From an uncultured Acidobacteriota bacterium (GTDB taxonomy: Bacteria > Acidobacteriota > Terriglobia > Terriglobales > Acidobacteriaceae): 64,000 bases of DNA. This document shows positions 17,091 to 31,572 of this stretch, in pieces (the first letter of the stretch is position 1; each line of letters begins with the position of its first letter). The position numbers were made by a program, and so were the translations under genes. The stretch covers positions 16,274 through 80,273 of the forward strand of contig CAILAC010000003.1 of the NCBI GenBank assembly GCA_903832055.1, in the 5' to 3' direction. Below the pieces are notes generated by a model, which worked only from the letters and a program-made list of their open reading frames with translations, was not told the origin of the DNA and did no database searches.

Positions 17091-17507
17091 ATGCCGCCAA
17101 AGAAATCAATCACGTTGACAGAAGCCGAGCTCAGGCTGATGAAGCTGCTCTGGCTGCGTGGTGAATCGGCGGTTGGCGACCTGGTGTCTGCCATGCCGGA
17201 GGGCGAAACACTGGCGTACAACTCGGTGTTGACGACGATCCGGATTCTGGAGCAAAAGGGCTACGTGGAGCACCGTCAGGAGGGCCGGGCATTTGTCTAC
17301 TGGCCCTGCGTGGCGGAGCATGAGGCAAGCCGGTCAGAAGTGCGACATGTGCTGAGCCGGTTCTTTGGTAATTCGCGGGAACGGTTGCTGCTCTCACTGC
17401 TGGGGGATGAAGAGATTTCTGCTGAGGAATTGCAGCGGCTCAAGGACGCCATCCAAAGTGCAGGCGAGGATGATGTCGTGGAGAGCGGAAAGGAAATCCA
17501 GGCGTGA
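17091..17507 (+). CDS. BlaI/MecI/CopY-family transcriptional repressor
   Basis: A 138-residue winged-helix repressor. LTEAELRLMKLLWLRGES and TIRILEQKGYVEHRQEGRAF match the BlaI HTH and wing, and the C-terminal helices (LSRFFGNSRERLLLSLL) form the dimerisation and cleavage region. The AAGGAG site lies 10 nt before the ATG. It overlaps the M56 peptidase gene by four bases, the classical repressor/sensor-protease pair. In acidobacteria such pairs are common and need not concern beta-lactams. Confidence 0.9.
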   Translation: MPPKKSITLTEAELRLMKLLWLRGESAVGDLVSAMPEGETLAYNSVLTTIRILEQKGYVEHRQEGRAFVYWPCVAEHEASRSEVRHVLSRFFGNSRERLLLSLLGDEEISAEELQRLKDAIQSAGEDDVVESGKEIQA

Positions 17508-19000
17508 TTGTGAACTGGAATTTCGACGACATTGCGCAGATGGTCCTGAGCGTTGGAGATCCTCTTCAGGCCTTTTCAAAAGCCGCCGCGCCAGTTCTTG
17601 TGACCTCGTTATGGCAGGGCGGTCTTGTTGCACTCTGCCTCGCCGTGTGCCTGCGGCTCACGCCTCGTACGGCGGCCTCCCTGCGTTTCGCCTTGTGGGC
17701 AATGGCCTTTGTGCTTCTAGTTGCGCTGGGGTTCCTGCCAGGATTGATGCACTTGACCGGTCTGCGGAATGTTCACGAGTCTTCGGGTTTGGAGTCTGCC
17801 GCAGCTGCTGTCGGTAACAAGCCCTGGCTTGAATTTGATATTCGATGGAGCGTTGTGCTGGTAGGGCTGTGGGCTTCGGCTTCAGTTTACCGGGCTGCCG
17901 ATCTCCTCTTTCATGGCTGGATTCTGAGGAAGCTCTGGAAGACTGCACGACCGGTCGCAGATGAGAGTTGCAATGCAGTCGCTTCACTGTGCGCGGAGAC
18001 CAGAAGAGCGCAACTGTGCATGACAGACGAGATTGAGCGACCAAGCGTGATTGGGTTCCTGGCTCCCCGAGTATTGATTCCGTCCTGGCTCATGGAGCGG
18101 CTGACGCCCGTGGAACTCGAGCAAGTCGTGCTCCATGAAACGGAGCATCTGCGCCGGGGAGACGACTGGACAAATCTGTTCCAAAAGCTGGCCCTGGTGG
18201 TTTTCCCGCTCAATCCGGCATTGATTTGGATGGACCGAAAGCTCTGCCTGGAGCGTGAGATGGCCTGTGACGAAGGCGTAGTCGCACGAACCCGTGCTCC
18301 GAGGGCCTATGCTGCATGCCTGACACGGCTGGCAGAGAGAGGCGTTGAGCGAAGAGCGGGGAGATTCGCGCGCGTTGCCCTGTCTCTGGGTGCCTGGCAA
18401 CGCCGCCCTGAGTTGGTGGAGCGAATTCATAGCATTCTGCGCGGAAAAACTGTACTTGGCCCATGGATTCGAAACGGCATCATGGCGGTGGCTGGATGCG
18501 GTCTGATCGTGGGATCGGTGGAGCTGGCGCGATGCCCCCAGCTTGTTTCATTTGAGCGAAATACTCACACCATAGCGACGTCGGCTGCGGTGACTGGGAC
18601 TCAACAACAGGTTGAAGTTGCATCGTTGCATCGTTCGGAGCTGAAACCCGTTTCCGCGCGGAATTCGGCTAATCCGCAACATCGACCCAACGTGCAGGTC
18701 CGGACAAACGGACGCGAAGTCGAACCAGTTGTAGAGGCTTCACAGGGTGGGTACTTCACTCAACTGTCAGCGGCTCAAACACTCAACAGCGAGGATGATG
18801 GAGCAGGCGCGACAAGCTGGATTGTGCTGACTTCTGCGGAGCAGCCGTCGATGGCTGATGTTTACAGCGACTACAGTAACGAAACCGAATTTCAGGAGAG
18901 AAGGACGCGCCTGTTGCTGCGCGTTTCGCCTCAGGGCCAGGTTTATCCCGCGCTCGCCGCCGTGCCAACGCGCACAGGCTGGCTCATCATCAAACTTTAA
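17504..19000 (+). CDS. M56-family membrane metalloprotease (BlaR1-like, no penicillin-binding sensor)
   Basis: A 498-residue membrane protein with several N-terminal helices and the zinc motif HETEH (H211, E212, H215) in VVLHETEHLRRGDDW, followed by LEREMACDEGVV with further conserved residues. BlaR1 homologues cleave their BlaI partner upon signal. A hydrophobic helix near 310-330 leads into a roughly 170-residue extracytoplasmic tail with no SxxK/KTG penicillin-sensor motifs, so the stimulus differs from classical BlaR1. The start is GTG overlapping the blaI stop (GTGA). An HtrA protease follows after 30 bases, hinting at envelope-stress response. Confidence 0.85.
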   Translation: MIVNWNFDDIAQMVLSVGDPLQAFSKAAAPVLVTSLWQGGLVALCLAVCLRLTPRTAASLRFALWAMAFVLLVALGFLPGLMHLTGLRNVHESSGLESAAAAVGNKPWLEFDIRWSVVLVGLWASASVYRAADLLFHGWILRKLWKTARPVADESCNAVASLCAETRRAQLCMTDEIERPSVIGFLAPRVLIPSWLMERLTPVELEQVVLHETEHLRRGDDWTNLFQKLALVVFPLNPALIWMDRKLCLEREMACDEGVVARTRAPRAYAACLTRLAERGVERRAGRFARVALSLGAWQRRPELVERIHSILRGKTVLGPWIRNGIMAVAGCGLIVGSVELARCPQLVSFERNTHTIATSAAVTGTQQQVEVASLHRSELKPVSARNSANPQHRPNVQVRTNGREVEPVVEASQGGYFTQLSAAQTLNSEDDGAGATSWIVLTSAEQPSMADVYSDYSNETEFQERRTRLLLRVSPQGQVYPALAAVPTRTGWLIIKL

Positions 19001-19030
19001 CCATCAATCCAATTCAAAGGCGAGGTAATT

Positions 19031-20593
19031 ATGACCGTTGCAACTAATTCATTAGTCGTTAAGTTCAAGAAATTCTCTGTTCCTGCTGCAGGTGCTGCAG
19101 CCATGCTTTTGGCAGTTTGCTTTGCGCTTGGGCGCACGACAGTGCATGCTGCAAGTGCTGCTTCACCACTCGATGACAGCAGTGTTTCGTCCTTGGTGGC
19201 GCTTGATAGCGCTGTCGAATCGGTGGCGGCGAAGGTCACTCCAGCAGTCGTCAATGTTTCGGTCACATCACGGGGTTCCTCTGAACAGGCCATGACGGAA
19301 GACGGTCAGGAGTTCGGCATTGCCCCGGGCGCCATACCGCCGGGCTTTGAGAGATTCTTTGGCCCTCAAGGGCCGAAGGGTCAGCGCATGCAGCCCCAAC
19401 AGCGAGTGGAACACGGCATTGGCAGCGGAATCATCATCTCTCCAGACGGCTACATCGTCACTAACAATCACGTGGTCGACGGAGCGGTGCAGATGCGGGT
19501 GACACTGAATGACCGCCGCGTACTTCCTGCCAAGCTGATTGGCGTAGACAAGTTGACCGACCTCGCGGTCATCAAGATTGACGCGAAGGATCTGCCCAGC
19601 ATCGCCTGGGGCGACTCGACGAAGTTGCATCCGGGGCAGACGGTTCTGGCCTTTGGCAGCCCGTTTGGATACTTCCAGTTCTCGGTAACCAGAGGCATTG
19701 TGAGCGCACTGAACCGGCCCAACCCCTATACGGATGACCCGCGCAAGCCCGGAGCCTATATCCAAACCGATGCGGCGATCAATCAGGGCAACTCCGGCGG
19801 GCCGCTGGTGAATGCGCACGGTGAATTGGTGGGTATCAATACATTCATCATTTCAAACAGCGGTTCGTTCGCTGGCGCGGGCTTTGCTATCCCATCGCAG
19901 ATTGTGAAGGCAACGGTCGACGCACTCATCAAGGATGGCGCAGTGCATCATGGCTACCTCGGCATTGCCATGAACGATGTCACTCCAGACAATGCAGGGT
20001 TCTTCAATCTTCCAGATGCCTCTGGAGCGATTATCAGTCAGGTCACGCCTGAATCGCCTGCTGGCCGTGCGGGATTGAAGAGCGGCGATGTGTTGCGCGC
20101 TTTGAACGGAAACAAGATCGTCAATGGCAGCGCGTTGCAGGTAGCCGTCAGTCAGATTTCACCCGGCAACACGATTGCACTCGGAGTACTGCGCGACGGC
20201 AAGGATGAGACAATCAAAGTGAAAGTGGGCGAGTTCCACGCCGACGCTGAGGTTGCTGAGAACGCTGACTCCCCATCAAAGAAAGGAGGACGCATCGGCG
20301 TGGCTGTCAATGACCTGACGCCGGAGTTACGCGATCAACTGAACGTGCCAACGCAGGTGAACGGTGCCGCAATTGAAAGCGTCAAGCCAGCAAGTCCGGC
20401 TGAGGATGCTGGGCTTGCTCCGGGCGATGTCATTCTTGAGGTCAATCGTCATCCTGTAGCCAGCGCCGAGAAGTTTGTGAGCGAAGTCCACTCGACGCCA
20501 GCCGGAAAGGACATTTTGTTGCTGGTCTGGTCGCATGGCAACTCCACCTATCGAGTAGTACATACCGACCAGAGCAGCCAAAGCGGGCTGTAA
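19031..20593 (+). CDS. periplasmic serine protease HtrA/Deg family
   Basis: This 520-residue protein has an N-terminal signal or anchor (about 12-40), a trypsin-like domain with triad H147 (NNHVVDG), D177 (LTDLAVIK) and S255 (GNSGGP), and two PDZ domains (about 310-400 and 420-505, with HHGYLGIAM and RIGVAVNDL). It degrades or refolds damaged envelope proteins. A GAGG site precedes the ATG. The gene lies 30 bases after the M56 peptidase and ends in a strong terminator, which suggests one BlaI-controlled unit. Confidence 0.92.
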   Translation: MTVATNSLVVKFKKFSVPAAGAAAMLLAVCFALGRTTVHAASAASPLDDSSVSSLVALDSAVESVAAKVTPAVVNVSVTSRGSSEQAMTEDGQEFGIAPGAIPPGFERFFGPQGPKGQRMQPQQRVEHGIGSGIIISPDGYIVTNNHVVDGAVQMRVTLNDRRVLPAKLIGVDKLTDLAVIKIDAKDLPSIAWGDSTKLHPGQTVLAFGSPFGYFQFSVTRGIVSALNRPNPYTDDPRKPGAYIQTDAAINQGNSGGPLVNAHGELVGINTFIISNSGSFAGAGFAIPSQIVKATVDALIKDGAVHHGYLGIAMNDVTPDNAGFFNLPDASGAIISQVTPESPAGRAGLKSGDVLRALNGNKIVNGSALQVAVSQISPGNTIALGVLRDGKDETIKVKVGEFHADAEVAENADSPSKKGGRIGVAVNDLTPELRDQLNVPTQVNGAAIESVKPASPAEDAGLAPGDVILEVNRHPVASAEKFVSEVHSTPAGKDILLLVWSHGNSTYRVVHTDQSSQSGL

Positions 20594-20953: not shown

Positions 20954-22033
20954 ATGACAATTGAGAAGGTTGTAGTCAGCGCCGAAGAAGTCGGTGAAAT
21001 CAAAGCCATCCCAGACGCGCCCCCGACATCATCATCGTTCGGAAAACTTCCCCCGCCCGTTCCGTGGTGGGCAAAGGTTGGCTTGTCGGGGTTGGTTCTC
21101 GTTCTGCCTGTGCTCTGCATCGTCACGATCATCCTGAGAATTGCTTTTCGGTCAGAGACACCACGCGTTAAGTACGCATGGGTATCTTTTTTATCGACAT
21201 TGCTGGTAATCAGCGGCTTTCTGACGGTGGGTGCTGCCGTGGTTATGTTCTCTTTTGTGCCCATCCCAGCGATGGTGAATACCGGGCTACCTGAACTTGA
21301 CGAGCGTCTTCAGTTCCCTTCTCTTCCCTCCACTACTGACCTGACGAGCGCAGATATTTCAGCCAAATTCAAACCGCTGGTGATCGTTGTCTCACCGGTT
21401 GCGCGGTTATGGAACCACCAGGAAGTTGCGTCGAACGCTTTCGGTGCGGGAGTCCTGCTCGAAGCAGACAAAGATGGATATTTGTTCGCGACGGCGAATC
21501 ATGTGACCAACGGCGAAAGACTGGGTTCAGATGCGACACCTGAGCATGCCATGGTGGCCACGGCTACCGGCATGTGGGCGTCTGCCGATGTCGTGGCGCA
21601 AGCGCCAAATCTTGACCTGGCATTGCTGTGGATTCCCCGAAACTCCAAAGGAGCCAATTTCGTGCAGCCAGTCGGGACTGCTCACGATGGCGCGGATATC
21701 TTTGTCATCGGGCATCCTGAGGGGTTGCGGTATACCCTGAGCACGGGCATTGTTTCAGGATTGCGCGATCAGTCGATTCAGATTTCCGCAGCGGTCAGCC
21801 CTGGCAACAGCGGCGGTCCGGTGTACGATAACCGGGGAAATCTGGTGGGCATTGTCAGTTCAAAATTTGACCACAACCGCGACTCTAACGCTGAAAACCT
21901 GAGCTTTGCAGCCAAGGCTGACTCATTTTTACAGCCAGCAAACTGGGTCTTTCACGCCAACGGCAAGGAGCGGTTTGACCGCTATATTCAAGCCGCTGCA
22001 TCCAGCAATAGCGGTAAACTATCCACCAAATAA
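20954..22033 (+). CDS. membrane-anchored trypsin-like serine protease, first gene of Ub-like operon
   Basis: From the ATG at 20954 the protein has 359 residues: a cytoplasmic tail of about 35 residues, two transmembrane helices (about 38-62 and 74-98), and a trypsin-like S1C domain with H183 (TANHVTNG), D221 (NLDLALLW) and S286 (GNSGGPVYD). There is no PDZ domain. An upstream extension to 20876 is possible but adds non-family residues. The ubiquitin-like gene begins 21 bases later. Its role may be processing or effector proteolysis linked to the conjugation system; known homologous neighbourhoods contain peptidases, but the substrate is unknown. Confidence 0.85.
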   Translation: MTIEKVVVSAEEVGEIKAIPDAPPTSSSFGKLPPPVPWWAKVGLSGLVLVLPVLCIVTIILRIAFRSETPRVKYAWVSFLSTLLVISGFLTVGAAVVMFSFVPIPAMVNTGLPELDERLQFPSLPSTTDLTSADISAKFKPLVIVVSPVARLWNHQEVASNAFGAGVLLEADKDGYLFATANHVTNGERLGSDATPEHAMVATATGMWASADVVAQAPNLDLALLWIPRNSKGANFVQPVGTAHDGADIFVIGHPEGLRYTLSTGIVSGLRDQSIQISAAVSPGNSGGPVYDNRGNLVGIVSSKFDHNRDSNAENLSFAAKADSFLQPANWVFHANGKERFDRYIQAAASSNSGKLSTK

Positions 22034-22054
22034 GCTGATTCACAGGATTGATTC

Positions 22055-22324
22055 ATGGCCTACATCAACGTAACCGTGTATGACTCGACGGAGAACAAGC
22101 GCGTTCCGGCGGAGTTGCCGGATGACGCACCGTGCAACAAGATTGTCGCCGTTCTCGTACAGAAGCTTCAGTTGCCAGTGAATGGGCCGGATGGCGCGCC
22201 CTTGAGCTACAAGTTCCACCATAAGAACTCGGGCCGGCAGATTCAAGACGCGCAAACACTGTCCGACGCCAACGTGAAGGATGGCGACATCTTGCGGCTG
22301 CAACCGGAAATTACAGCAGGATAA
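22055..22324 (+). CDS. YukD/EsaB-type ubiquitin-like protein
   Basis: An 89-residue beta-grasp protein. The pattern INVTVYDST, VPAELPDDAP, LSYKFHHKNSGRQI and LRLQPEITAG matches YukD/EsaB, the ubiquitin-like family known from type VII secretion. The C-terminus is exposed and ends in a single glycine (ITAG) with no processing tail, so it could be adenylated directly by the E1 encoded 2 bases downstream. YukD of Bacillus lacks such a tail. Eight lysines and the absence of a WXG100 or EssC gene nearby favour a conjugation role; this is inference from gene context. Confidence 0.85.
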   Translation: MAYINVTVYDSTENKRVPAELPDDAPCNKIVAVLVQKLQLPVNGPDGAPLSYKFHHKNSGRQIQDAQTLSDANVKDGDILRLQPEITAG

Positions 22325-22326
22325 CC

Positions 22327-23544
22327 ATGTTGCCCGAGACCATCCACGTCGATGCGACCGCAGAAGACGACCGCTATAGTCGCTTCCGCCTGATCCCCTG
22401 GTGGGACCAGGAGAAGATTCGCGCCGCGCGAGTGCTGGTGATTGGTGCAGGAGCGCTGGGCAACGAAATTCTCAAAAACCTCGCGTTGCTGGGATTCCTC
22501 AATATCGTCGTGGTCGATCTGGACCACATTGAGCTTTCGAATCTCTCCCGCGCCATCCTCTTTCGCCCCAGCGATGTGGGACGATCCAAAGCGGAAGCCG
22601 TAGTCAGCGCTTATCGTGAACTACTACCTGAAGCCACAGTTCAGGCGCTGACCGCCAATGTCATGCAGGATTGTGGTCTCGGGCTTTTTGCTTGGGCAGA
22701 CATCATCATCGCCGGCCTCGATAATCGCGAGGCCCGCCTGTGGATCAACCGGGCCGCATGGAAGACAAACCGTCCCTGGATCGACGGCGCTATCGAGGGT
22801 ATCAACGGAGTCGCGCGGGTGTTCATGCCCGGACAGGCACCATGCTATGAGTGCACGCTGGGCGCAACCGACTGGGCCATTCTGGAGAGGCGCATGTCGT
22901 GTAACCTGCTCCTGCATGAGGCCAATCCGCAGGGGCGCGTCCCGACAACTCCCACGATCTCATCGATTATCGGCGGCATTCAGGCGCAGGAGGCCGTCAA
23001 GGCACTGCATGGATTGCCGACGCTGGCCAGCAAGGGGTTTGTCTTTGAAGGGCTGCTGCATTCCTCCTATGTCGTTGAATACACTGAGAATCCAGATTGC
23101 ATGAGCCACTATGTGCTTGAGAATGTCGTGCAGCTTCCGCAGGCTTCGAGCGAAGTGACGCTTGCGCAACTGCTCGAACGCGCAAGCGTTGACCTGGGAA
23201 CTGCGGATGTAGTGCTTGAGTTTAGTCGCGACATCATTCACAAGCTTGTATGCCCGGCTTGCGGTGCAGAAGAAGAATGCTTTGTCCCCGTCGGTGCCCT
23301 GCGCTACCAGCAAGGAATTTGCCCGCGCGATGGACGCATGCGCGTAGTTCAGACGCTCTCAGGGTTCCGTCCTGGCAACGATGCCGCTCCTGAACTCGGC
23401 TCGCGGCACCTGAGTGATCTGGGACTGCCGTCGTATGACATATTCACCGCGCGCGCTGGAGAAGTTGAAATCTCGTACTGCATGGCTGGAGATGCGTCGG
23501 CTGTTATAGGACCGCTGGCTGCGGCCTCTGAGGTCTCGCAATGA
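22327..23544 (+). CDS. E1-like ubiquitin-activating enzyme (ThiF/MoeB/HesA fold)
   Basis: A 405-residue protein with a Rossmann adenylation domain: nucleotide loop GAGALGNE (G40-G45), acidic residues in VVVDLDHIELSNLSR, and the arginine in ILFRPSDVGRSKAE. Zinc ligands are C173/C176 (CYEC) and C309/C312 (CPAC). C192 in RRMSCNLL, placed before VPTTPTISSIIGG, occupies the position of the catalytic cysteine that forms a thioester in ThiF/MoeB/E1. The extra ~100 C-terminal residues after the zinc pair could present the E2, as a ubiquitin-fold domain does. It overlaps the JAB gene by four bases. Confidence 0.92.
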   Translation: MLPETIHVDATAEDDRYSRFRLIPWWDQEKIRAARVLVIGAGALGNEILKNLALLGFLNIVVVDLDHIELSNLSRAILFRPSDVGRSKAEAVVSAYRELLPEATVQALTANVMQDCGLGLFAWADIIIAGLDNREARLWINRAAWKTNRPWIDGAIEGINGVARVFMPGQAPCYECTLGATDWAILERRMSCNLLLHEANPQGRVPTTPTISSIIGGIQAQEAVKALHGLPTLASKGFVFEGLLHSSYVVEYTENPDCMSHYVLENVVQLPQASSEVTLAQLLERASVDLGTADVVLEFSRDIIHKLVCPACGAEEECFVPVGALRYQQGICPRDGRMRVVQTLSGFRPGNDAAPELGSRHLSDLGLPSYDIFTARAGEVEISYCMAGDASAVIGPLAAASEVSQ

Positions 23545-24347
23545 GCAAGAAGCCCAATTCCAAGCCGGGAGCTGGACCGCGGCTCCACTTTGATAACGAA
23601 GTGGCGCGGTGCATTCGTCAGCATGCCCGCGCTCACATGAAGACCGAAGTCTGCGGCGTCCTCATCGGCGAAAACGTCAACGGCGTCGTCGAAGTACGGG
23701 CATCCATCGAAGCCTCCAATGCGGCTCAGGCCGGCACACACGTGACATTCACTCAGGATGCCTGGGAGACAATTTATCGCGTCAAAGATGAAAACTATCC
23801 TGATGACCGAATTGTCGGCTGGTATCACTCCCACCCAGGCTTTGGTGTCTTCCTCTCTGAGCACGACACATTCATCCAGCGAAACTTCTTCTCTTCTCCT
23901 GACCAGGTGGCCTGGGTCTACGATCCCCACACAGATGAGGAAGGCTGCTTTGGCTGGATCGACGGCGAGATTCATCGCATACCGTCCTACATAATTTTGG
24001 ACAATAACGGCGACGGAGTCGAGCGGACTCCGAAGAGTTCTGAGAATTCCCGGCCGGATATAGACGACGAATCGCAGATGAAATACGGAGATCAGAGCCG
24101 CGAAAGACCTCCTGCGCGGTGGCTGCAATGGACTTTCTACGCACTCTCGTATCTTTCGATGCTCTTGCTGGGCTTCATGGTGGCATATTTGCTTTTTCCC
24201 AGGCTGGTTGCGATCCCGGTTGACCCAGTCACAGGGGAACCTTTGCTTCGTCTACCCAGTGCGCGGCCTGCAATCACGGCTCCGCCGCCAACTTCATCGC
24301 AGACGGTAAATCCACCACCCGCAGACAAGCAAGGGAGTACCAAATGA
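23541..24347 (+). CDS. JAB/JAMM-domain isopeptidase with C-terminal membrane anchor (deubiquitinase-like)
   Basis: This 268-residue protein has a JAMM metalloprotease domain (about 15-165) with the complete motif: E36 in TEVCGVLIGE, H96 and H98 in YHSHPGFG, and D109 in SEHD. A single transmembrane helix lies at about 195-220 (YLSMLLLGFMVAYLLF), followed by a proline-rich tail. In eukaryotes and bacteria this family removes ubiquitin-like proteins from targets or trims precursors. Since the Ubl has no tail, deconjugation is the likely activity. Four-base overlaps on both sides tie it to the E1 and FHA genes. Confidence 0.92.
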   Translation: MSKKPNSKPGAGPRLHFDNEVARCIRQHARAHMKTEVCGVLIGENVNGVVEVRASIEASNAAQAGTHVTFTQDAWETIYRVKDENYPDDRIVGWYHSHPGFGVFLSEHDTFIQRNFFSSPDQVAWVYDPHTDEEGCFGWIDGEIHRIPSYIILDNNGDGVERTPKSSENSRPDIDDESQMKYGDQSRERPPARWLQWTFYALSYLSMLLLGFMVAYLLFPRLVAIPVDPVTGEPLLRLPSARPAITAPPPTSSQTVNPPPADKQGSTK

Positions 24348-25408
24348 GCAGCAATCCTGAGCAGGAGACGGTGAGGATCACCCTGGAGGATCTGACCGCG
24401 GCCGATCGATCCCAGCCGACTGAGTTTGCCCCAGCCGGAACTGCCTCAACTACAACGGGCGGCAAGAGCTATGGCAACGTGAATGCCATGCCGGACGCTC
24501 CCGAGATCGTTCAAGAGAAAGGCAGCATCCTGCTGCAGGCCTGGCTGTATCTCGGAGTTGCGGGGCTGGTTGGCGCCATGGCTGGCTGGGCAATAGCGGA
24601 GCCTGGTTTTGTCGATGGCGGTGAGCATCGCTGGGGCAACATCTGGCTGCTCCCGATGATCGTGACGCTCATGTGCGTCGGCTTTGCGGTTGCCGAAAGC
24701 ATTGTGGAGCGATCAGTAAAGAAAGCACTTGTGCGCGCGGGGCTGGCATTGCCTTTGGGTATTGTCCTGGGCTTTATCTTCAACTCACTGGCCAACATTT
24801 TCTATAACATCGGTCTCGGTATTTGCTATCAGGCAGGGGTCCAGTCCTACCACAACCCGGCCGTGTGGATTGTGCGCGGGCTGGCGTGGGCTGTCTTTGG
24901 CGCGGCTGGCGGAGTCGTCTACGGCATCATTGGCCGGTCGATGAGGAAAACAGGCTACGGTGTGCTGGGCGGCGCAATCGGCGCGGCCATAGGCGGTATG
25001 GTCTTTGACCCGATTTCTTTTGCGACGCATGGCGGCGCAACCAGCCGGGCGATCGGCTTTTGCCTGCTGGGAACAGCTACCGGCATCGCCATGGGCCTGG
25101 TTGAAAGCGCGCTCAAAGATCGCTGGCTGTATGTCACTGCCGGTCCTTTGGCGGGCAAGCAATTCATTCTCTACAAGCCGCAGACCGCGATGGGAAGCTC
25201 TCAGAGCTGCGATATCTACCTCTTCAAAGATGCGGAGATTTTGCCCCAGCATGCAGTTCTCCAGCTCAAAGGATCGAAAGTCCATCTAATAGCGAGCGGC
25301 CTGGCGTACGTTGCCGGACAGCCTGTACGCGGCATGCGAGTGCTTGAAAGCGGCTCGATGGTGCAACTGGGCCGGTACACATTCCGCTATCAGGAGAGGC
25401 AGCGCTGA
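24344..25408 (+). CDS. polytopic membrane protein with C-terminal FHA domain
   Basis: A 354-residue protein: disordered N-terminus (1-60), about six hydrophobic helices between 65 and 265 rich in glycine and alanine, and a C-terminal FHA domain (about 270-354) with GSSQSCDIYLF, LPQHAVL and the closing LGRYTFRY. FHA domains bind phosphothreonine peptides, so the locus may respond to Ser/Thr kinase signalling. No kinase gene is in the window. It probably places the conjugation machinery at the inner membrane. It overlaps the JAB and RING-like genes. Confidence 0.82.
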   Translation: MSSNPEQETVRITLEDLTAADRSQPTEFAPAGTASTTTGGKSYGNVNAMPDAPEIVQEKGSILLQAWLYLGVAGLVGAMAGWAIAEPGFVDGGEHRWGNIWLLPMIVTLMCVGFAVAESIVERSVKKALVRAGLALPLGIVLGFIFNSLANIFYNIGLGICYQAGVQSYHNPAVWIVRGLAWAVFGAAGGVVYGIIGRSMRKTGYGVLGGAIGAAIGGMVFDPISFATHGGATSRAIGFCLLGTATGIAMGLVESALKDRWLYVTAGPLAGKQFILYKPQTAMGSSQSCDIYLFKDAEILPQHAVLQLKGSKVHLIASGLAYVAGQPVRGMRVLESGSMVQLGRYTFRYQERQR

Positions 25409-26076
25409 TGGCCGTCACATGTCCCTACTGCCGAACCGCGTTTGAAGCGGACGAAGAAATCGTTCAGTGCGCCAGCTGCGGCACAAGCCACCACGCCGAT
25501 TGCCTGGCCGAAAACGGCGGCTGTACCGTCTTTGGCTGTGCGGAAGCACCCAAGGACGAGGCAAAGGTCAGCGTAAGCAACCAGGATCTTCGTTTTCCAG
25601 GCACTCAGATTCCTTCGGCACAACCCGCCGCACCTACGTCTTTCCTGAATCTTCAAACCGCCCCGGTTGCATTGCCTCCCTCGATTCCATCGGTAACTCC
25701 TCCCCCACCCATGCCCGAGGGCGCAGTGCCAGCGCCGGTACCGCCTCCGCCCATGCCATGGCCTTCGTCCGGGCCAGCTTACGCAGCCAATTTCAACCCA
25801 CCATACTCGCCGACTTTTTCAGGACATGCGCCCGCTCCGTTTCAGATCAATCCTGGCTACATTCCTCGCAAGAGTCGCGTCGTCTTTGTGCTGCTTGCAG
25901 TGTTCATGGGCGTTTTTGGTGCGCACAATTTCTACGCTGGCTATAACAAGAGGGGCGTGATTCAGCTTTGCATTACGGTGCTTACGTGTTTTTTCGGTTC
26001 CATCATCACCGGGATATGGGCCATAGTGGAAGCCTGTATCATTGACCACGATAATGACGGCATCACATTCATTTAG
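25408..26076 (+). CDS. RING-like zinc-finger protein with TM2 membrane domain (candidate E3 ligase)
   Basis: This 222-residue protein begins with a binuclear treble-clef finger: C5/C8, C21/C24, H28 or H29 with C32, and C39/C44, the prokaryotic RING arrangement. A proline-rich linker of about 85 residues leads to a TM2 domain (about 145-218) with two helices and the GxxGAHNFYAGYNKRG turn. Prokaryotic RINGs were predicted to act as E3s where they neighbour E1, E2, JAB and YukD genes, exactly as here. E3 activity is inferred; the finger could instead only bind a partner. Confidence 0.83.
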   Translation: MAVTCPYCRTAFEADEEIVQCASCGTSHHADCLAENGGCTVFGCAEAPKDEAKVSVSNQDLRFPGTQIPSAQPAAPTSFLNLQTAPVALPPSIPSVTPPPPMPEGAVPAPVPPPPMPWPSSGPAYAANFNPPYSPTFSGHAPAPFQINPGYIPRKSRVVFVLLAVFMGVFGAHNFYAGYNKRGVIQLCITVLTCFFGSIITGIWAIVEACIIDHDNDGITFI

Positions 26077-26091
26077 CTTTGGAGAGCCTGC

Positions 26092-26739
26092 ATGAACTAC
26101 TTCATTACGCGCGACGGACAGGACTACGGCCCCTATTCCCTGGGTGACCTGCAACGCTATGTTGCCTCAGGCCAGATTTTGCTTACGGACATGGCACGCA
26201 GCGAAGGCATGACAGAGCCCATGCTGGTTTCCCAGATCATCGGGACCATTCCCGTTCCCATGCAGGCTCCGCAGGGTTTTGCCGCACCCGCGATGCCTGA
26301 CTATCCTGACCCACCAAACCTGCATTGGGGATTGGTGCTGCTCTTCGCGATCCTCAGTTGCGGAATTTTCAGTGCCGTCTGGAATCTCGTCTTGGCTGCG
26401 TGGATGAAGAAGGTGAAACCTCAGAGCACGGCGATTTACTACTACATCGCCGCGGCCGGAATGCTCGTTGTCGTATTCTTTACCAGCTTTGCGTTGTCTC
26501 TGAATCACACCAAAGAACCCTATTCTGGTTTGCTCAACCTGGTCTATGGAATCCTCTCGCTCATCGGCCGATTCAGCCTGCGCAGTTCGATTGAAGACCA
26601 CTACAACTCAGAGGAGCCAATGGGGGTTTCGCTGAGCGGCGTCATGACCTTCTTCTTCGGCACAACGTACATTCAATACCACTTGAATGACATTGTTAGG
26701 CGCAAGAACCAGGCCCGGATGGGTCTCTACCAGCCATGA
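26092..26739 (+). CDS. GYF_2-domain multi-pass membrane protein
   Basis: The first 55 residues form a GYF_2 (DUF4339) domain: YFITRDGQDYGPYSLGDL and the segment VASGQILLTDMARSEG. Four hydrophobic helices follow (about 83-105, 118-140, 145-165, 180-200). GYF domains bind proline-rich peptides; both the JAB and the RING/TM2 neighbours have proline-rich stretches, so they may be its partners. The gene starts 15 bases after the RING/TM2 stop and overlaps the DUF2752 gene by four bases. Confidence 0.8.
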   Translation: MNYFITRDGQDYGPYSLGDLQRYVASGQILLTDMARSEGMTEPMLVSQIIGTIPVPMQAPQGFAAPAMPDYPDPPNLHWGLVLLFAILSCGIFSAVWNLVLAAWMKKVKPQSTAIYYYIAAAGMLVVVFFTSFALSLNHTKEPYSGLLNLVYGILSLIGRFSLRSSIEDHYNSEEPMGVSLSGVMTFFFGTTYIQYHLNDIVRRKNQARMGLYQP

Positions 26740-27122
26740 GTTACGCGGGCCGCCGATGGGTCGCGAATGGCGCCGCGTTCGGTGGCCTCGCAGCCGCGTT
26801 TCTTCTGCTGCGGTTTCCTCCAGAGAAGAGCGCATTTTACCCGCGCTGCCCGGTGTTCAGTCTCTTCCACGTTCTTTGCCCTGGCTGCGGCGGCACCAGG
26901 GCCCTTGCAGCATTGCTTCATGGCGACCTGGCTGGAGCGCTGCACTGGAATGCGCTCATCGTGCTTCTGCTTCCGTTTGCCTGCTGGTTCTTTTCGGTAT
27001 GCTACTGGAGAGCAAACTTCAGGAAAGAGTTTTCCTGGCCAGCTATCCCCGGGTCTTGGATCGTAGTGTGTCAGGCTCTGGCGCTGATATTTGCCGTTGC
27101 GAGAAACCTCTATCCAATTTAG
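26736..27122 (+). CDS. DUF2752 membrane protein
   Basis: A 128-residue protein with three hydrophobic helices and the DUF2752 signature CPGCGGTRALAALLHGD followed by ALHWNAL. The function of the family is unknown. Its genes are often found near TM2 and GYF membrane proteins. Here it is translationally coupled to the GYF gene (ATGA overlap) and precedes the E2 gene by 15 bases. Confidence 0.83.
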   Translation: MSYAGRRWVANGAAFGGLAAAFLLLRFPPEKSAFYPRCPVFSLFHVLCPGCGGTRALAALLHGDLAGALHWNALIVLLLPFACWFFSVCYWRANFRKEFSWPAIPGSWIVVCQALALIFAVARNLYPI

Positions 27123-27137
27123 AAAGCAGGGCAATGT

Positions 27138-27671
27138 ATGGCCTCTCCTCGCACACGAAGACTCAAGATTGACCATGAATTGCTGCTTAGCCGCTTTGCT
27201 GATTGGCCGACAATCAAGATCAGCGCCACAGCGGGAATGCCCCCGGAGCTCTATCGCTTCACTTATGCATTGAAAGGCTTGTACGTGAATGCGGCGGGAG
27301 AGATACTCGAGCGCGACAGCCATGTTCTCGAAGTCAATCTGTCCCTCGACTATCCCCGACGCTCTCCGCAGTGCCGCATGCTGACGCCGGTTTTTCACCC
27401 CAATTTCGATGAAGCTACAGTCTGCATCGGCGATTTCTGGGCCGCATCAGAAGGGCTCGATGACCTGATTATCCGCATCGGGAGAATGATCGCTTACCAG
27501 GAATACAACACACGCAGCCCTCTCAACGGACTTGCAGCCAGATGGGCTGCCGAACACACGAACATGCTGCCAATTGACAGCCGCATCGTCGCCCCGCCTC
27601 ACGACAAGGGTGAACTGGAAATAGCAACGGATACCACTCCAATTGAAGTCTCTGATGTCGATTTAGATTGA
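27138..27671 (+). CDS. E2-like ubiquitin-conjugating enzyme (UBC fold)
   Basis: This 177-residue protein has a UBC fold: the strand LEVNLSLDYPRRSPQ, the HPN motif in VFHPNF (H87-P88-N89), and the catalytic cysteine C96 in ATVCIGDFW, seven residues after the asparagine, close to the canonical spacing. LDDLIIRIGRMI and NTRSPLNGLAARW correspond to the post-active-site helices. Residues after 150 are acidic and probably disordered. It would receive the YukD-type Ubl from the E1 and pass it to targets, perhaps with the RING/TM2 protein. It closes the operon. Confidence 0.88.
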   Translation: MASPRTRRLKIDHELLLSRFADWPTIKISATAGMPPELYRFTYALKGLYVNAAGEILERDSHVLEVNLSLDYPRRSPQCRMLTPVFHPNFDEATVCIGDFWAASEGLDDLIIRIGRMIAYQEYNTRSPLNGLAARWAAEHTNMLPIDSRIVAPPHDKGELEIATDTTPIEVSDVDLD

Positions 27672-28279
27672 TTGGGATGAGGGGTAGTATCGAACGTGAA
27701 GATCGATAAGTAATATGAATTGAGCGCTTTAGAGGCTCGATCACAGGGCTTTGCGAACCATCATTTTTGCGTGCGACTTACGAATACAAGGCCGATGCAG
27801 GATCATCCATGTTTAATGAAGGTTTGCGCCCACTGCTTGACTTCCAGAGGGCAGGTTGGTGTTCAATCGAAAGCAACAAATTGCTGAATTTTACTTAACT
27901 ATAAGCAACATCCTGAGACATCCGCTTTGAGGCTTCGGAAGTGCGAGAATAACCATGCTTCTAACGAACGCTCTGCCGAGTACGATCAAGCCATATTCGA
28001 CTCAGGCAATCTTTGAGGATTTTCTTGATCTTGATCTGAATTGAGAGGAAACTCAACCCAAGAACATGATTTGAATCGGCTTCCCAGTCCACGCCCGTTT
28101 CCATCACTTTTGCCGCGCCTGAGGGTGTTGTTCATCCGTTTGCGCAGACTCAGGTGAACCTCTTTTTTGCACCACAAATCAAACTGCGCCTGGGCAAGTG
28201 AAGTTCCAGCACCCGCTCTGTGAGCGTGCTCTTGTCCGGACATGAAGACCCGATACAAGGAAAGGAATTCAGGAATATC
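27672..28279. other. intergenic region after the Ub-like operon
   Basis: In these 608 bases I find no recognisable gene, RNA or clear terminator. It is AT-richer than its surroundings. Open frames on either strand are short and read like random sequence. A possible promoter for the sedolisin gene may lie near the 3' end. Confidence 0.4.
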
Positions 28280-31200
28280 ATGACGGGCTATCAACACCGC
28301 ATTACTGTCACTCTCGCCATCCTCTCAGCGGTATGTTCGCCCGTCACTTTGCCCAGGCTCTTCGCCCAGGAAGCTGCCGTTGCCGTGCGCATCGTCGAAT
28401 CCATCGATGAAGGCCGCCTTGTCTCGTTGCCGGGCAACACACATCCACTCGCCCGCGCCACCTTTGATCGCGGCCGCGTCTCCCGCGGCCTGAACATGGG
28501 CGATCTCATCCTCGTCCTCCGCCGTTCCCCGGAGCAGCAGGCGGCCTTCGACGCCTTTGTTGCCAGCCAATATGAGCCAAAATCGCCCAACTACCATCAG
28601 TGGCTCACACCCGCGCAGGTTGGCGAACGCTTTGGTCCCGCCTCATCCGATATTGAACTCATCGCTAACTGGCTGCGTAACCACGGCTTCACCATTGACG
28701 AAATCAGCCCGGACCACCTCTCAGTCCGCTTTGACGGCACCGCCTCCCAGGTTGAATCTGCGTTCCATACCGAGATCCACCACTACGAAGTCCCCAGCCT
28801 CAAAACCTCGCGCTCCGAGGCCGCCGTACCGGAATCCCACATCGCCAACGTGAGCGACCCCCAGATCCCGGCTGCACTTTCCCCGGTGGTTGTCGGCATC
28901 AAAGCACTCCATAACTACTTCCCACGTCCCCTCCACCAACTCGGTGCGCAGGTCTCCCTGGATCATGCCTCCGGTACCCGCCGACGGCTCGGACCACGTC
29001 CTACAGTAGCCACTCAAGTCCCCGGCCTCGTCGTTCCAACCGGCGTCCATCCGCAATTTGGTACATTGAACGGCTATGGCAACACGATCGAAGACGTTAC
29101 TCCCTACGACTTTGCCACCATCTACAATGTGCTCCCGCTCTGGAAGGCCGCTGCCCCGATCGATGGCACCGGTCAAACCATCGCGATCGCCGGCACCAGT
29201 AATATCAACCTCGCTGACGTGGCCGCGTTCCGCGCAGCCTTCGGTCTGCCGGTCAAAGCCCCCAACGTCCTGATTACCAACAGTGACCCCGGCAAATGCC
29301 CTGGCTTCAACAGCACCTGCGCCGGAGATCTCGTTGAAAACACCCTCGATGTCGAATGGTCCGGAGCCGTAGCCAAGGGTGCCAACATCACTCTCGTAAC
29401 GTCGAGCGCACCCACGCCTACCACGGACGCCCTTTACCTCTCAGAAAGTTACATCGTCCAGCACAAGACTGCCGCCATCATGAACGTGAGTTATGGTGAG
29501 TGCGAATTAGCCCTCGGTAACGCCGGCAACAGCCTGTACAACAACCTCTGGCAAACCGCCGCCACCGAAGGCATAGCCGTCTTCGTCGCGAGTGGAGACT
29601 CCGGCTCGCCGGCCTGTGACCAAGGCTTCGACGCTACCAATGGCGTGCCATACGGTGCCCAGTTCGGCCTTTCCGTGAGCGGGATTGCCTCAACGGCTTA
29701 CGACACTGCCGTCGGCGGCACCGATTTCAACTGGGGCACCAGCCCCGCCCCCTACTGGAGTTCAGCCAACACCACGGGAGCCTCTGCTCTTGGCTACATT
29801 CCTGAAGTTCCCTGGAACTCCACCTGCGCCAACCCGCTCATACTGCCAAGCCTGGCATCAGACGCTGCCTACGTCGGCGTCTCTGGTGTCATCGATGCGG
29901 AGTCTGCCTGCAACTTCGTCATCGAAAGCGGCAATTACATCGCCACTAATTACGGCGTGGTCTTGTCGACACAATCGGCGGCGGAGGCGGTGCGAGCAAC
30001 TGCACCATCAGCAGCGGCGGCAACCCGCTCACCTGTTCAGGTGGCTACTCCAAGCCTGGCTTTCAATCCGGTGTCCCCGGCATCCCTGCCGATGCCCGCC
30101 GTGACATTCCGGACGTCTCATTCTTTGCCTCCAACGGATTCCTCGGCTCCTCCTATCTGATATGTGTCACCGGTATTGGCCCCTGCACTTACTCGGCATC
30201 CACCGAACCAGTCGCCCAGGAAGTCGGTGGCACCTCGGTCGCCTCGCCTGCCATGGCCGGCGTAATGGCCCTCATCAATCAAAAATCTGCCGCCGCCCAG
30301 GGTAATCCGAACAAACTCCTTTACACTCTCGCCGCAGAGCAATCCTGGGCCAGTTGCAGCGCTAAGACCGTGAAAGCAACCAGCAATTGCGTATTCAATG
30401 ACATCAATTCTGGCGGCAATGCCATGCCATGCGTTAGCGGCTCGCCCTATTGCACCACGCTCTATTCCGGAGACCCCGCGGGCATTCTCCCCGGCTATAG
30501 CGCAAATGTCGGCTATGATGCCGCCACCGGACTGGGCTCTCTCAATGTAGCCAACGTCGTCAATCTCTGGCCCACTTCCACAAACTCGCCGGTTGTCAGC
30601 CTAGCTCCGACCAACCTCAGCTATGCCGCCACAACGGTCGCCATCGCGGCACCAACTCAGTCAGTCACGCTCAAGAACACCGGTAAATCTGCCCTCACAT
30701 TGAACGGAACCGGGCAAGGAATCAGCATCACGGGAGCCAACTCGACATCCTTCAGCCAGAACAATACTTGCGGAGCCAGTGTCGCCGCCGGGTCCTCCTG
30801 CGTCATTACTGTCACCTTCAAACCCGCAGCCGCTGGGGCCCTCGTTGCATCTCTTCGCGTCGCGGACAACGCCTTCGGCTCGCCGCAATCTGTCGGCCTG
30901 GCCGGTACCGGCACGGCCGCTGCACCCGTAGTAACCCTGAGTGCAACCGCGCTCACCTTTGGCAGCACAATCGTCGGCTCATCCAACACCGCCCCTGCCG
31001 TTACCCTTACGAATTCCGGCTCCGGAACCCTCACCATTTCGAGCATCGCTATCACTGGCACCAACGCCGGCTCATTTTCTCAGACCAACAACTGCGGATC
31101 CTCCATCGCCAAGGGCGCTTCCTGCTCCATCACCCTCACGTTCAAACCCCTTGCGGTTGGCGCGCTGACTGCCTCGCTCGGCGTCACAGACAACGCCGCT

Positions 31201-31572
31201 GGATCCCCACAGAAGATATCCCTCTCCGGTACCGGAGCCACCGCCGCCAGCACTACTGCGACGTACTCACCCACATCACTTACTTTTGCGGCCACCAATG
31301 TCGGAACCACCTCTACCGCACAGACTGTCACCCTCAAAAATACCGGCACCGCTGCACTCAGCGTCACCTCCATTGGCCTTGCTGGTGCCAACATCACTTC
31401 GTTCAACGCATCGTTTGGCACTTGCACAGCCCCGGTCCCTGCTGGCTCCACCTGCCAGCTCAGTATCTCCTTCGCCCCGAGTGCCAAAGGCGCAGCCTCC
31501 GCAACCTTGTCCATCACTGACAACGCCACCGGGTCCCCACAGAAGATCACTCTCAGCGGCACGGGACAGTAA
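28280..31572 (+). pseudogene. secreted sedolisin (S53, pro-kumamolisin) with three C-terminal Ig-like anchor domains, interrupted by a frameshift
   Basis: A signal peptide begins at ATG 28280 (AGGA 6 nt upstream). The S53 pro-domain (about 30-200) and catalytic domain follow, with Glu353 and Asp357 in VENTLDVEW. Near 29966-29976 the frame changes: the first frame stops at 30160, and family sequence (TIGGGGGASNCTISSGG, then GGTSVASP with the nucleophile Ser at 30236) continues in the frame that ends at 31572. One missing base explains this. Three 'choice-of-anchor D'/ASPM-SPD2-like domains end the protein. Either the gene is dead or the base was lost in sequencing. Confidence 0.85.

Follow-up and report, generated by a model that had tools for sequence, protein, structure and literature searches.

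A conserved operon of a predicted ubiquitin-like conjugation class, with predicted membrane components, in an uncultured Acidobacteriaceae bacterium

We analyzed a stretch of 64 000 nucleotides (below, the window) of contig CAILAC010000003.1 from an uncultured bacterium of the family Acidobacteriaceae (GenBank assembly GCA_903832055.1); we consider here nine adjacent open frames occupying window positions 20954-27671 of the plus strand. They form a conserved operon of a predicted class, in which genes for a ubiquitin-like modifier (Ubl), an activating enzyme (E1), a conjugating enzyme (E2), a JAB/JAMM isopeptidase and a candidate ligase (E3) stand together with genes for membrane proteins and an HtrA-like protease (Table 1). 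We hold it highly probable that the Ubl is conjugated; the fuller statement, that the operon encodes a complete, reversible Ubl conjugation cycle at the inner membrane, appears likely, and the membrane as the site of conjugation, taken by itself, seems fairly probable. The mechanism is read from the parts; the evidence that points to conjugation, drawn from sequence comparison, is new and specific.

The successive junctions between the nine frames measure 21, 2, -4, -4, -1, 15, -4 and 15 bases (negative values for overlaps), so that the tightly joined, single-strand set of nine genes proposed in a preliminary description of the window was borne out. A profile search gave Pfam matches above the curated cut-off for every family named there, and the residues listed as catalytic (E1 C192; E2 H87-P88-N89 and C96; JAB E36, H96, H98 and D109) are all present. 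One component had to be redrawn: the TM2 domain exists, as the tail of the RING-like protein and not as a separate protein. The UQ_con match of the E2 is the only one in the whole genome. Promoter-like sites (4 versus 4.1 in shuffled sequences) and terminator-like sites (10 versus 7.1, standard deviation 2.5) showed no clear excess in the operon.

The main new argument for conjugation comes from the pattern of Ubl tails among orthologues. The Ubl is the best conserved of seven proteins compared; over 33 common loci the median identity to the window protein was 0.85 for the Ubl, 0.66 for E2, 0.61 for E1, 0.55 for the FHA protein and 0.45 for JAB. Its end, LRLQPEITAG, is 90-100% identical per position over 50 orthologues, and A88 and G89 are kept in all 50 (rows for the tail were cut with a motif containing E85, A88 and G89; the count for A88 and G89 was the same without the motif). 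Translation stops at Gly89 in 30 of the 50; the remaining 20 carry 1-10 extra residues with no common pattern. Conservation thus ends at the conjugation Gly, as in ubiquitin-type precursors, which argues that the Ubl is conjugated. JAMM processing of a Ubl precursor is documented for an archaeal system in the available parts of PMC6043591 and PMC5654768.

The YukD-family fold of the modifier is shared with the YukD of type VII secretion, and a role as a type VII secretion partner was considered. A search of the genome (98.8% complete) gave no WXG100 match; we conclude that the YukD gene does not serve a type VII system, and the partner role was rejected. The YukD of Bacillus subtilis is reported not to be conjugated (PMC1779556, in its available part); that report concerns the type VII secretion setting.

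Residue counts that follow refer, where stated, to two sets of loci, with L013-L060 making up group A, and L012 together with L061-L088 making up group B. The predicted catalytic C192 of E1 is kept in 35 of 35 group-A proteins and in 19 of 21 group-B proteins, the remaining two being partial frames. In a 29-row alignment C173, C176, C192, C258 and H261 are invariant; C173, C176, C258 and H261 likely make up a zinc site. The predicted structure of E1 (pLDDT 90.4, pTM 0.90) matched MoeB/ThiF and eukaryotic E1s in a structural search, with C192 at the start of a loop (residues 192-203) that is disordered in the model. For some of the UBA3, SAE2 and UBA1 rows the alignment reaches residue 388-389, and for other rows it ends at residue 261; superposition on SAE2 (9dqb_B) covered 310 residues with a root-mean-square deviation of 3.8, and that on 2nvu_B covered 312 residues with a deviation of 7.6. 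Judged within the full-length model, these alignments suggest that the C-terminal domain (residues 262-405) is UFD-like.

The E2 is, as predicted from its profile matches and residues, of UBC type with an HPN motif and a catalytic Cys: H87, P88 and C96 are present in 77 of 77 orthologues and N89 in 76, while H87, P88, N89, C96 and D99 are found in all 48 group-A orthologues. A profile match to UBE2B runs across residues 1-141. The type of E2 bears on the proposal that the Ubl is joined to a membrane lipid, as eukaryotic ATG8 is, with JAB acting as the delipidating enzyme. The E3-like protein and JAB are both predicted membrane proteins and the Ubl ends in a single Gly, as this proposal would have it; the canonical HPN-type E2, however, matches UBE2A/B and UBE2C and not ATG3 or ATG10 (among 60 of the 113 match rows), and we regard lipid attachment as very improbable. 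A sulfur-carrier or cofactor pathway with borrowed ubiquitin-like parts is hardly credible: sulfur transfer calls neither for a UFD-like E1 domain nor for an E2 of HPN type that is a protein of its own and has an invariant Cys, and no sulfur or cofactor gene is found among the nine.

In JAB, residues H96, H98, S106 and D109 are present in 63 of 63 orthologues. The protease is less uniform. Its triad (H183, D221, S286) is present in the window protein; the catalytic His is absent from 4 of 11 group-B proteins, and the protein of locus L037 has no triad. As catalytic residues have been lost in some orthologues, protease activity is not universal. At L075, L078, L079 and L085 the catalytic His is replaced by Tyr or Arg, and the protein may be a pseudo-enzyme. 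Another locus (L071, 8223-11967) has three JAB genes in one operon, one of them with a C-terminal LysM domain.

The preliminary description had counted five or more membrane components; a simple hydropathy scan found hydrophobic segments in six proteins, namely the protease, JAB (residues 199-220), and the FHA, RING-TM2, GYF and DUF2752 proteins. The same scan found none in the Ubl and E2 and gave a weak match in E1 that lies inside the nucleotide fold. At least one such segment was present in 33 of 36 JAB frames of group A, but in just 36 of 43 RING frames.

A phosphothreonine-reading FHA pocket has canonical Arg and Ser residues. The window FHA protein has Ser and Leu at the Arg and Ser positions, respectively; among its membrane orthologues the pocket Ser occurs in 0 of 49 (Thr in two) and the Arg in 7 of 49, and a GKQF or GKEF motif is found in 48 of 49. 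With these pocket residues missing, the membrane FHA protein is unlikely to read phosphothreonine. Phospho-gated recruitment through it is therefore unsupported in this genome; such recruitment is possible for FHA domains fused to other components. Fusions of E2 with FHA were found by Pfam in two Spartobacteria (L033 and L044), while custom profiles revealed RING-GYF fusions in the same two loci and an FHA-RING fusion in L059; the second FHA of L059 lies on a protein matched by the RING-TM2 custom profile and not by Prok-RING_1 in Pfam. In these fused FHA domains the pocket Ser is present in three of three and the Arg in one (L059). The E2-FHA fusions tie FHA and E2 together, and the RING-GYF fusions tie GYF in.

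The finger of the RING-like protein has C4HC3 ligands, and C5, P6, C8, C21, C24, H29, C32, E35, N36, C39, G43 and C44 are invariant in 29 chosen rows. Its predicted structure gave weak fold matches, with RING slightly ahead of PHD. The interpretation offered in the preliminary description is supported in part. As a guess, the proline-rich linker of this protein could be a ligand of the GYF domain.

From these parts the following cycle can be proposed. As its sequence shows, the Ubl is made with a terminal Gly that is already free. E1, whose residues and model were described above, would likely adenylate this Gly and load the Ubl on C192; the UFD-like domain would then likely present the Ubl to E2, which would accept it on C96. 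The RING-TM2 protein likely holds the charged E2 at the membrane, where E2 would transfer the Ubl onto amino groups of targets in or near the membrane. JAB, by its predicted membrane segment a membrane protein too, likely removes the Ubl and, in relatives with a tailed Ubl, likely trims the precursor too. The FHA-like and GYF membrane proteins are most readily taken to be scaffolds, and the HtrA-like protease a partner in processing or quality control.

The neighbourhood survey agreed with the expectation that the gene set is conserved in relatives: the same genes co-occur in many genomes, beyond chance. A scan with one genome per species yielded 80 loci. Full loci were defined as those among L013-L054 in which 8.4 kb or more of sequence lies upstream of E2; in all 24 of them the Ubl, E1, JAB, FHA, RING and E2 genes are each present, along with the protease in 23, GYF in 20 and DUF2752 in nine. 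Gene orders can be given as far as frame tiling displays each gene, some frames being hidden. The arrangement protease-Ubl-E1-JAB-FHA-RING-(GYF)-(DUF2752)-E2 is seen in Acidobacteria, Verrucomicrobia and a single 'Deltaproteobacteria' bin; Edaphobacter aggregans DSM 19364 (L018) and Acidobacteriaceae bacterium ZG23-2 (L014, a complete chromosome) carry the gene set. A Sumerlaeota locus (L053) has Ubl-E1-FHA-RING-E2. Planctomycetes and Armatimonadota-like genomes have rearranged forms, with extra JAB genes in the latter. In Bacillota, three loci (L076, L077 and L086) consist of Ubl-E1-E2-JAB-RING only, between metabolic genes, and two (L069 and L072) show protease and FHA matches as well.

Within its own surroundings E2 is infrequent: it was found in 6 of 100 relatives, although one of them, G045, has another type of E2. 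Of 395 Acidobacteriota genomes 14 have an E2, several of distant types. Both counts include the own genome. In the E1 tree (57 rows, ten of them without a group) the nine phylum groups require eight label changes, the fewest possible; Acidobacteriota fall on one side of a branch (91/98) and Verrucomicrobiota are split. The E2 tree (77 rows) requires eight changes versus a minimum of seven, and four of five listed groups need two to three. Both trees carry long-branch warnings. Taken together, the gene set is rare and its occurrence inside phyla is patchy; these trees gave no sign that it passes freely from one phylum to another, and transfer is possible.

Some matches lie outside this gene set. 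Four archaeal contigs (L089-L092, three of them named Helarchaeota or Heimdallarchaeota) were matched by the E2 pattern, and in L089 an E1-like frame adjoins the E2. The G045 locus (L012, 8942-15579), from the same family as the window, has a Ubl/E1/E2/JAB set of another kind, which is preceded by a J-domain gene (DnaJ 3.9e-12); it adjoins type VI secretion genes (VasE/TssK, DotU/TssL), and its Ubl, matched by YukD only at 0.0075, ends in EGGLR. On the mobilizable plasmid pCRI9333.03 of the cyanobacterium Crinalium epipsammum (L094, 4239-9457) E1, two small frames, E2 and a Mov34/JAB gene are followed by a conjugative-transfer gene.

The operon lies directly 3' of a pair of genes, M56 and Do-protease (window 17504-20593). 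The pair is present in all six congener stretches and is followed by the operon in one of them (L008); in the five congeners that have no E2 (L095-L099) the sequence after the pair had no match in the window. Recent import into the window was tested by this comparison of sites and by G+C content, which is near-equal in the operon (0.564) and the window (0.569), and was not retained; either gain or loss of the operon may have occurred. On the other side of the operon, the consecutive window frames 28220-30160 and 30253-31572 give, on visual inspection, the impression of a single sedolisin-like protease gene that is interrupted between the two; their matches in relatives sit in longer open frames.

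One has to ask whether the operon is a Bil- or Bub-like anti-phage or stress-defence system that attaches the Ubl to phage or host proteins during infection. The experimentally studied bacterial E1-E2-Ubl operons (Bil, CBASS, for cyclic oligonucleotide-based anti-phage signalling system, and Bub) are linked to defence or suspected of it, Bub not having been shown to protect against phage (PMC11354881 and PMC13373217, in their available parts); the rarity and patchiness of E2 and the variation of the window site between congeners would fit such a role. A scan covered the first 94 of 171 listed flanking frames (200-1000 residues, up to four from each locus). Single proteins among them match defence models strongly (pAgo 3e-205, PDC-S24 2.5e-185, and also IetA, type II and III methyltransferases, PD-T4-6 and mad6); against this, no family among the 91 of PADLOC had matches in two or more of the 94, a count made per family and uncalibrated as a contrast, control flanks and known defence systems having not been compared. 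The commonest Pfam family in the flanks was Phi_1 (phosphate-induced protein; 7 of 94, L013-L051), with amidohydrolases and NAD-dependent epimerase types at three each. Scanned Bacillota and Armatimonadota-like flanks are mostly metabolic, another point against defence: the former hold butyrate/acetate kinase-like, phosphotransacetylase, ketoacid oxidoreductase and CstA genes and a sigma-54 regulator, the latter include YbjN, argininosuccinate lyase and dihydroorotate dehydrogenase; neither set gave a functional lead. Nor did mobile elements favour a defence role: E2 had no match in phage records and no confirmed match in viral contigs, and its single match in plasmids was a distant one (the E1 search of plasmids gave three partial matches). 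On phylum labels, moreover, the E1 tree needs the minimum of changes and the E2 tree one above its minimum, with some individual groups split. Three proteins of the operon itself gave weak cross-matches in PADLOC: E1 with the E1-E2 and BilD models, JAB with JAB models, and the protease with RT-Protease_XI (1.4e-10). No match at E 0.1 was found there for the E2, Ubl, RING, FHA, GYF and DUF2752 proteins. On balance a defence function seems improbable to us, and the role that we tentatively put forward in its place is to regulate membrane proteins or to control their quality.

Burroughs, Iyer and Aravind reportedly predicted bacterial operons of YukD, E1, E2, JAB and RING genes in 2011, and the present operon, with a YukD-type Ubl, a ThiF-type E1, a separate UBC-type E2 and JAB, matches that class. 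Our search of the available literature found no experimental study of this gene set. Such operons in Actinobacteria, Planctomycetes and Acidobacteria are called uncharacterised in the available part of PMC4197634 (citing Burroughs 2011). Comparisons below likewise refer to the available parts of the papers, except for PMC1779556. The operon of Ca. Caldiarchaeum subterraneum (PMC5654768, PMC6043591) likewise keeps Ubl, E1, E2, a RING-type E3 and JAMM together. Cleavage of the precursor tail by JAMM after the conjugation Gly was tested there and is a prediction here; the Ubl tail has GG there and AG here; the archaeal E3 belongs to the RING-H2 class (C3H2C3; PMC11354881), in contrast to C4HC3 here; and the accounts of the archaeal operon mention no membrane partners, unlike the case described here.

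BilABCD (PMC11354881) has the Ubl, E1, E2 and JAB in common with our operon. BilA, however, has two Ubl domains, whereas the Ubl here has 89 residues and one YukD match; BilB is an E2 with a CEHH motif (Cys, Glu at +6, His at +8, His at +13), whereas the E2 here is of HPN type and has A102, S104 and D109 at the corresponding places after C96; BilD has two adenylation domains, one inactive and one active, as well as a helical Cys domain, whereas the E1 here has a single ThiF match in 405 residues, a UFD-like domain and, in the model, no inserted helical domain that could be seen. The RING-like protein and the membrane partners occur in this operon and not in BilABCD. The motif of E2, the architecture of E1 and the length of the Ubl led us to reject membership in Bil, in agreement with the distinct content claimed earlier. 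Type II CBASS-like operons and types 6a-6c of Iyer 2006 (PMC1779556) share E1, E2 and JAB chemistry with the operon, but have the E2-like domain fused to E1, whereas here E1 and E2 are separate and the Ubl is dedicated. As Pfam found no nucleotidyltransferase among the nine genes and E1 and E2 are separate genes, a CBASS-type E1-E2 fusion was rejected too. Section 14 of Iyer 2006 describes five operon types, none with the full content of this operon.

Table 1. Features of the operon, in window coordinates, with the evidence for each
Feature	Position	Strand	Evidence
Trypsin-like (HtrA-like) serine protease, 359 residues, predicted N-terminal membrane segments	20954..22033	+	Trypsin_2 2.5e-22
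YukD-type Ubl, 89 residues, ends ...LRLQPEITAG, free terminal Gly	22055..22324	+	YukD 3.5e-14
E1-like activating enzyme, 405 residues	22327..23544	+	ThiF 7.4e-54
Codon of E1 C192 (predicted catalytic)	22900..22902	+	sequence, conservation, model
E1 C-terminal domain, residues 262-405, UFD-like, second Cys-rich stretch	23110..23541	+	structural alignment
JAB/JAMM isopeptidase, 268 residues, E36/H96/H98/S106/D109	23541..24347	+	JAB 8.7e-14
Predicted transmembrane segment of JAB, residues 199-220	24135..24200	+	hydropathy scan
Polytopic membrane protein, C-terminal FHA/YscD-like domain	24344..25408	+	FHA 1e-5, YscD cytoplasmic domain 1e-8
RING-like (C4HC3) zinc finger, proline-rich linker, TM2 membrane hairpin; candidate E3	25408..26076	+	Prok-RING_1 4.7e-11, TM2 2e-14
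GYF_2-domain membrane protein	26092..26739	+	GYF_2 6.4e-7
DUF2752 membrane protein, optional component	26736..27122	+	DUF2752 7.2e-16
E2-like conjugating enzyme, 177 residues, HPN motif, C96	27138..27671	+	UQ_con 5.4e-8
Codon of E2 C96 (predicted catalytic)	27423..27425	+	sequence, conservation

With an invariant Gly, precursor-like tails and a short operon, the central claim, conjugation of the Ubl, is testable with purified proteins. One could go further and speculate, as a bolder reading that we consider doubtful at present, that this is the first bacterial membrane-resident Ubl pathway with its own E3, in which a RING-type ligase and a deconjugase sit in the inner membrane with an HtrA-like partner and tag membrane proteins, much as ligases of the endoplasmic reticulum membrane do. 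If this membrane-resident reading were true, membrane quality control by ubiquitin-like tags would have arisen in bacteria. A cascade of this kind in bacteria, combining a candidate E3 with a canonical active site in E2 and a UFD-like domain in E1, would be relevant to the question of how the eukaryotic system came together.

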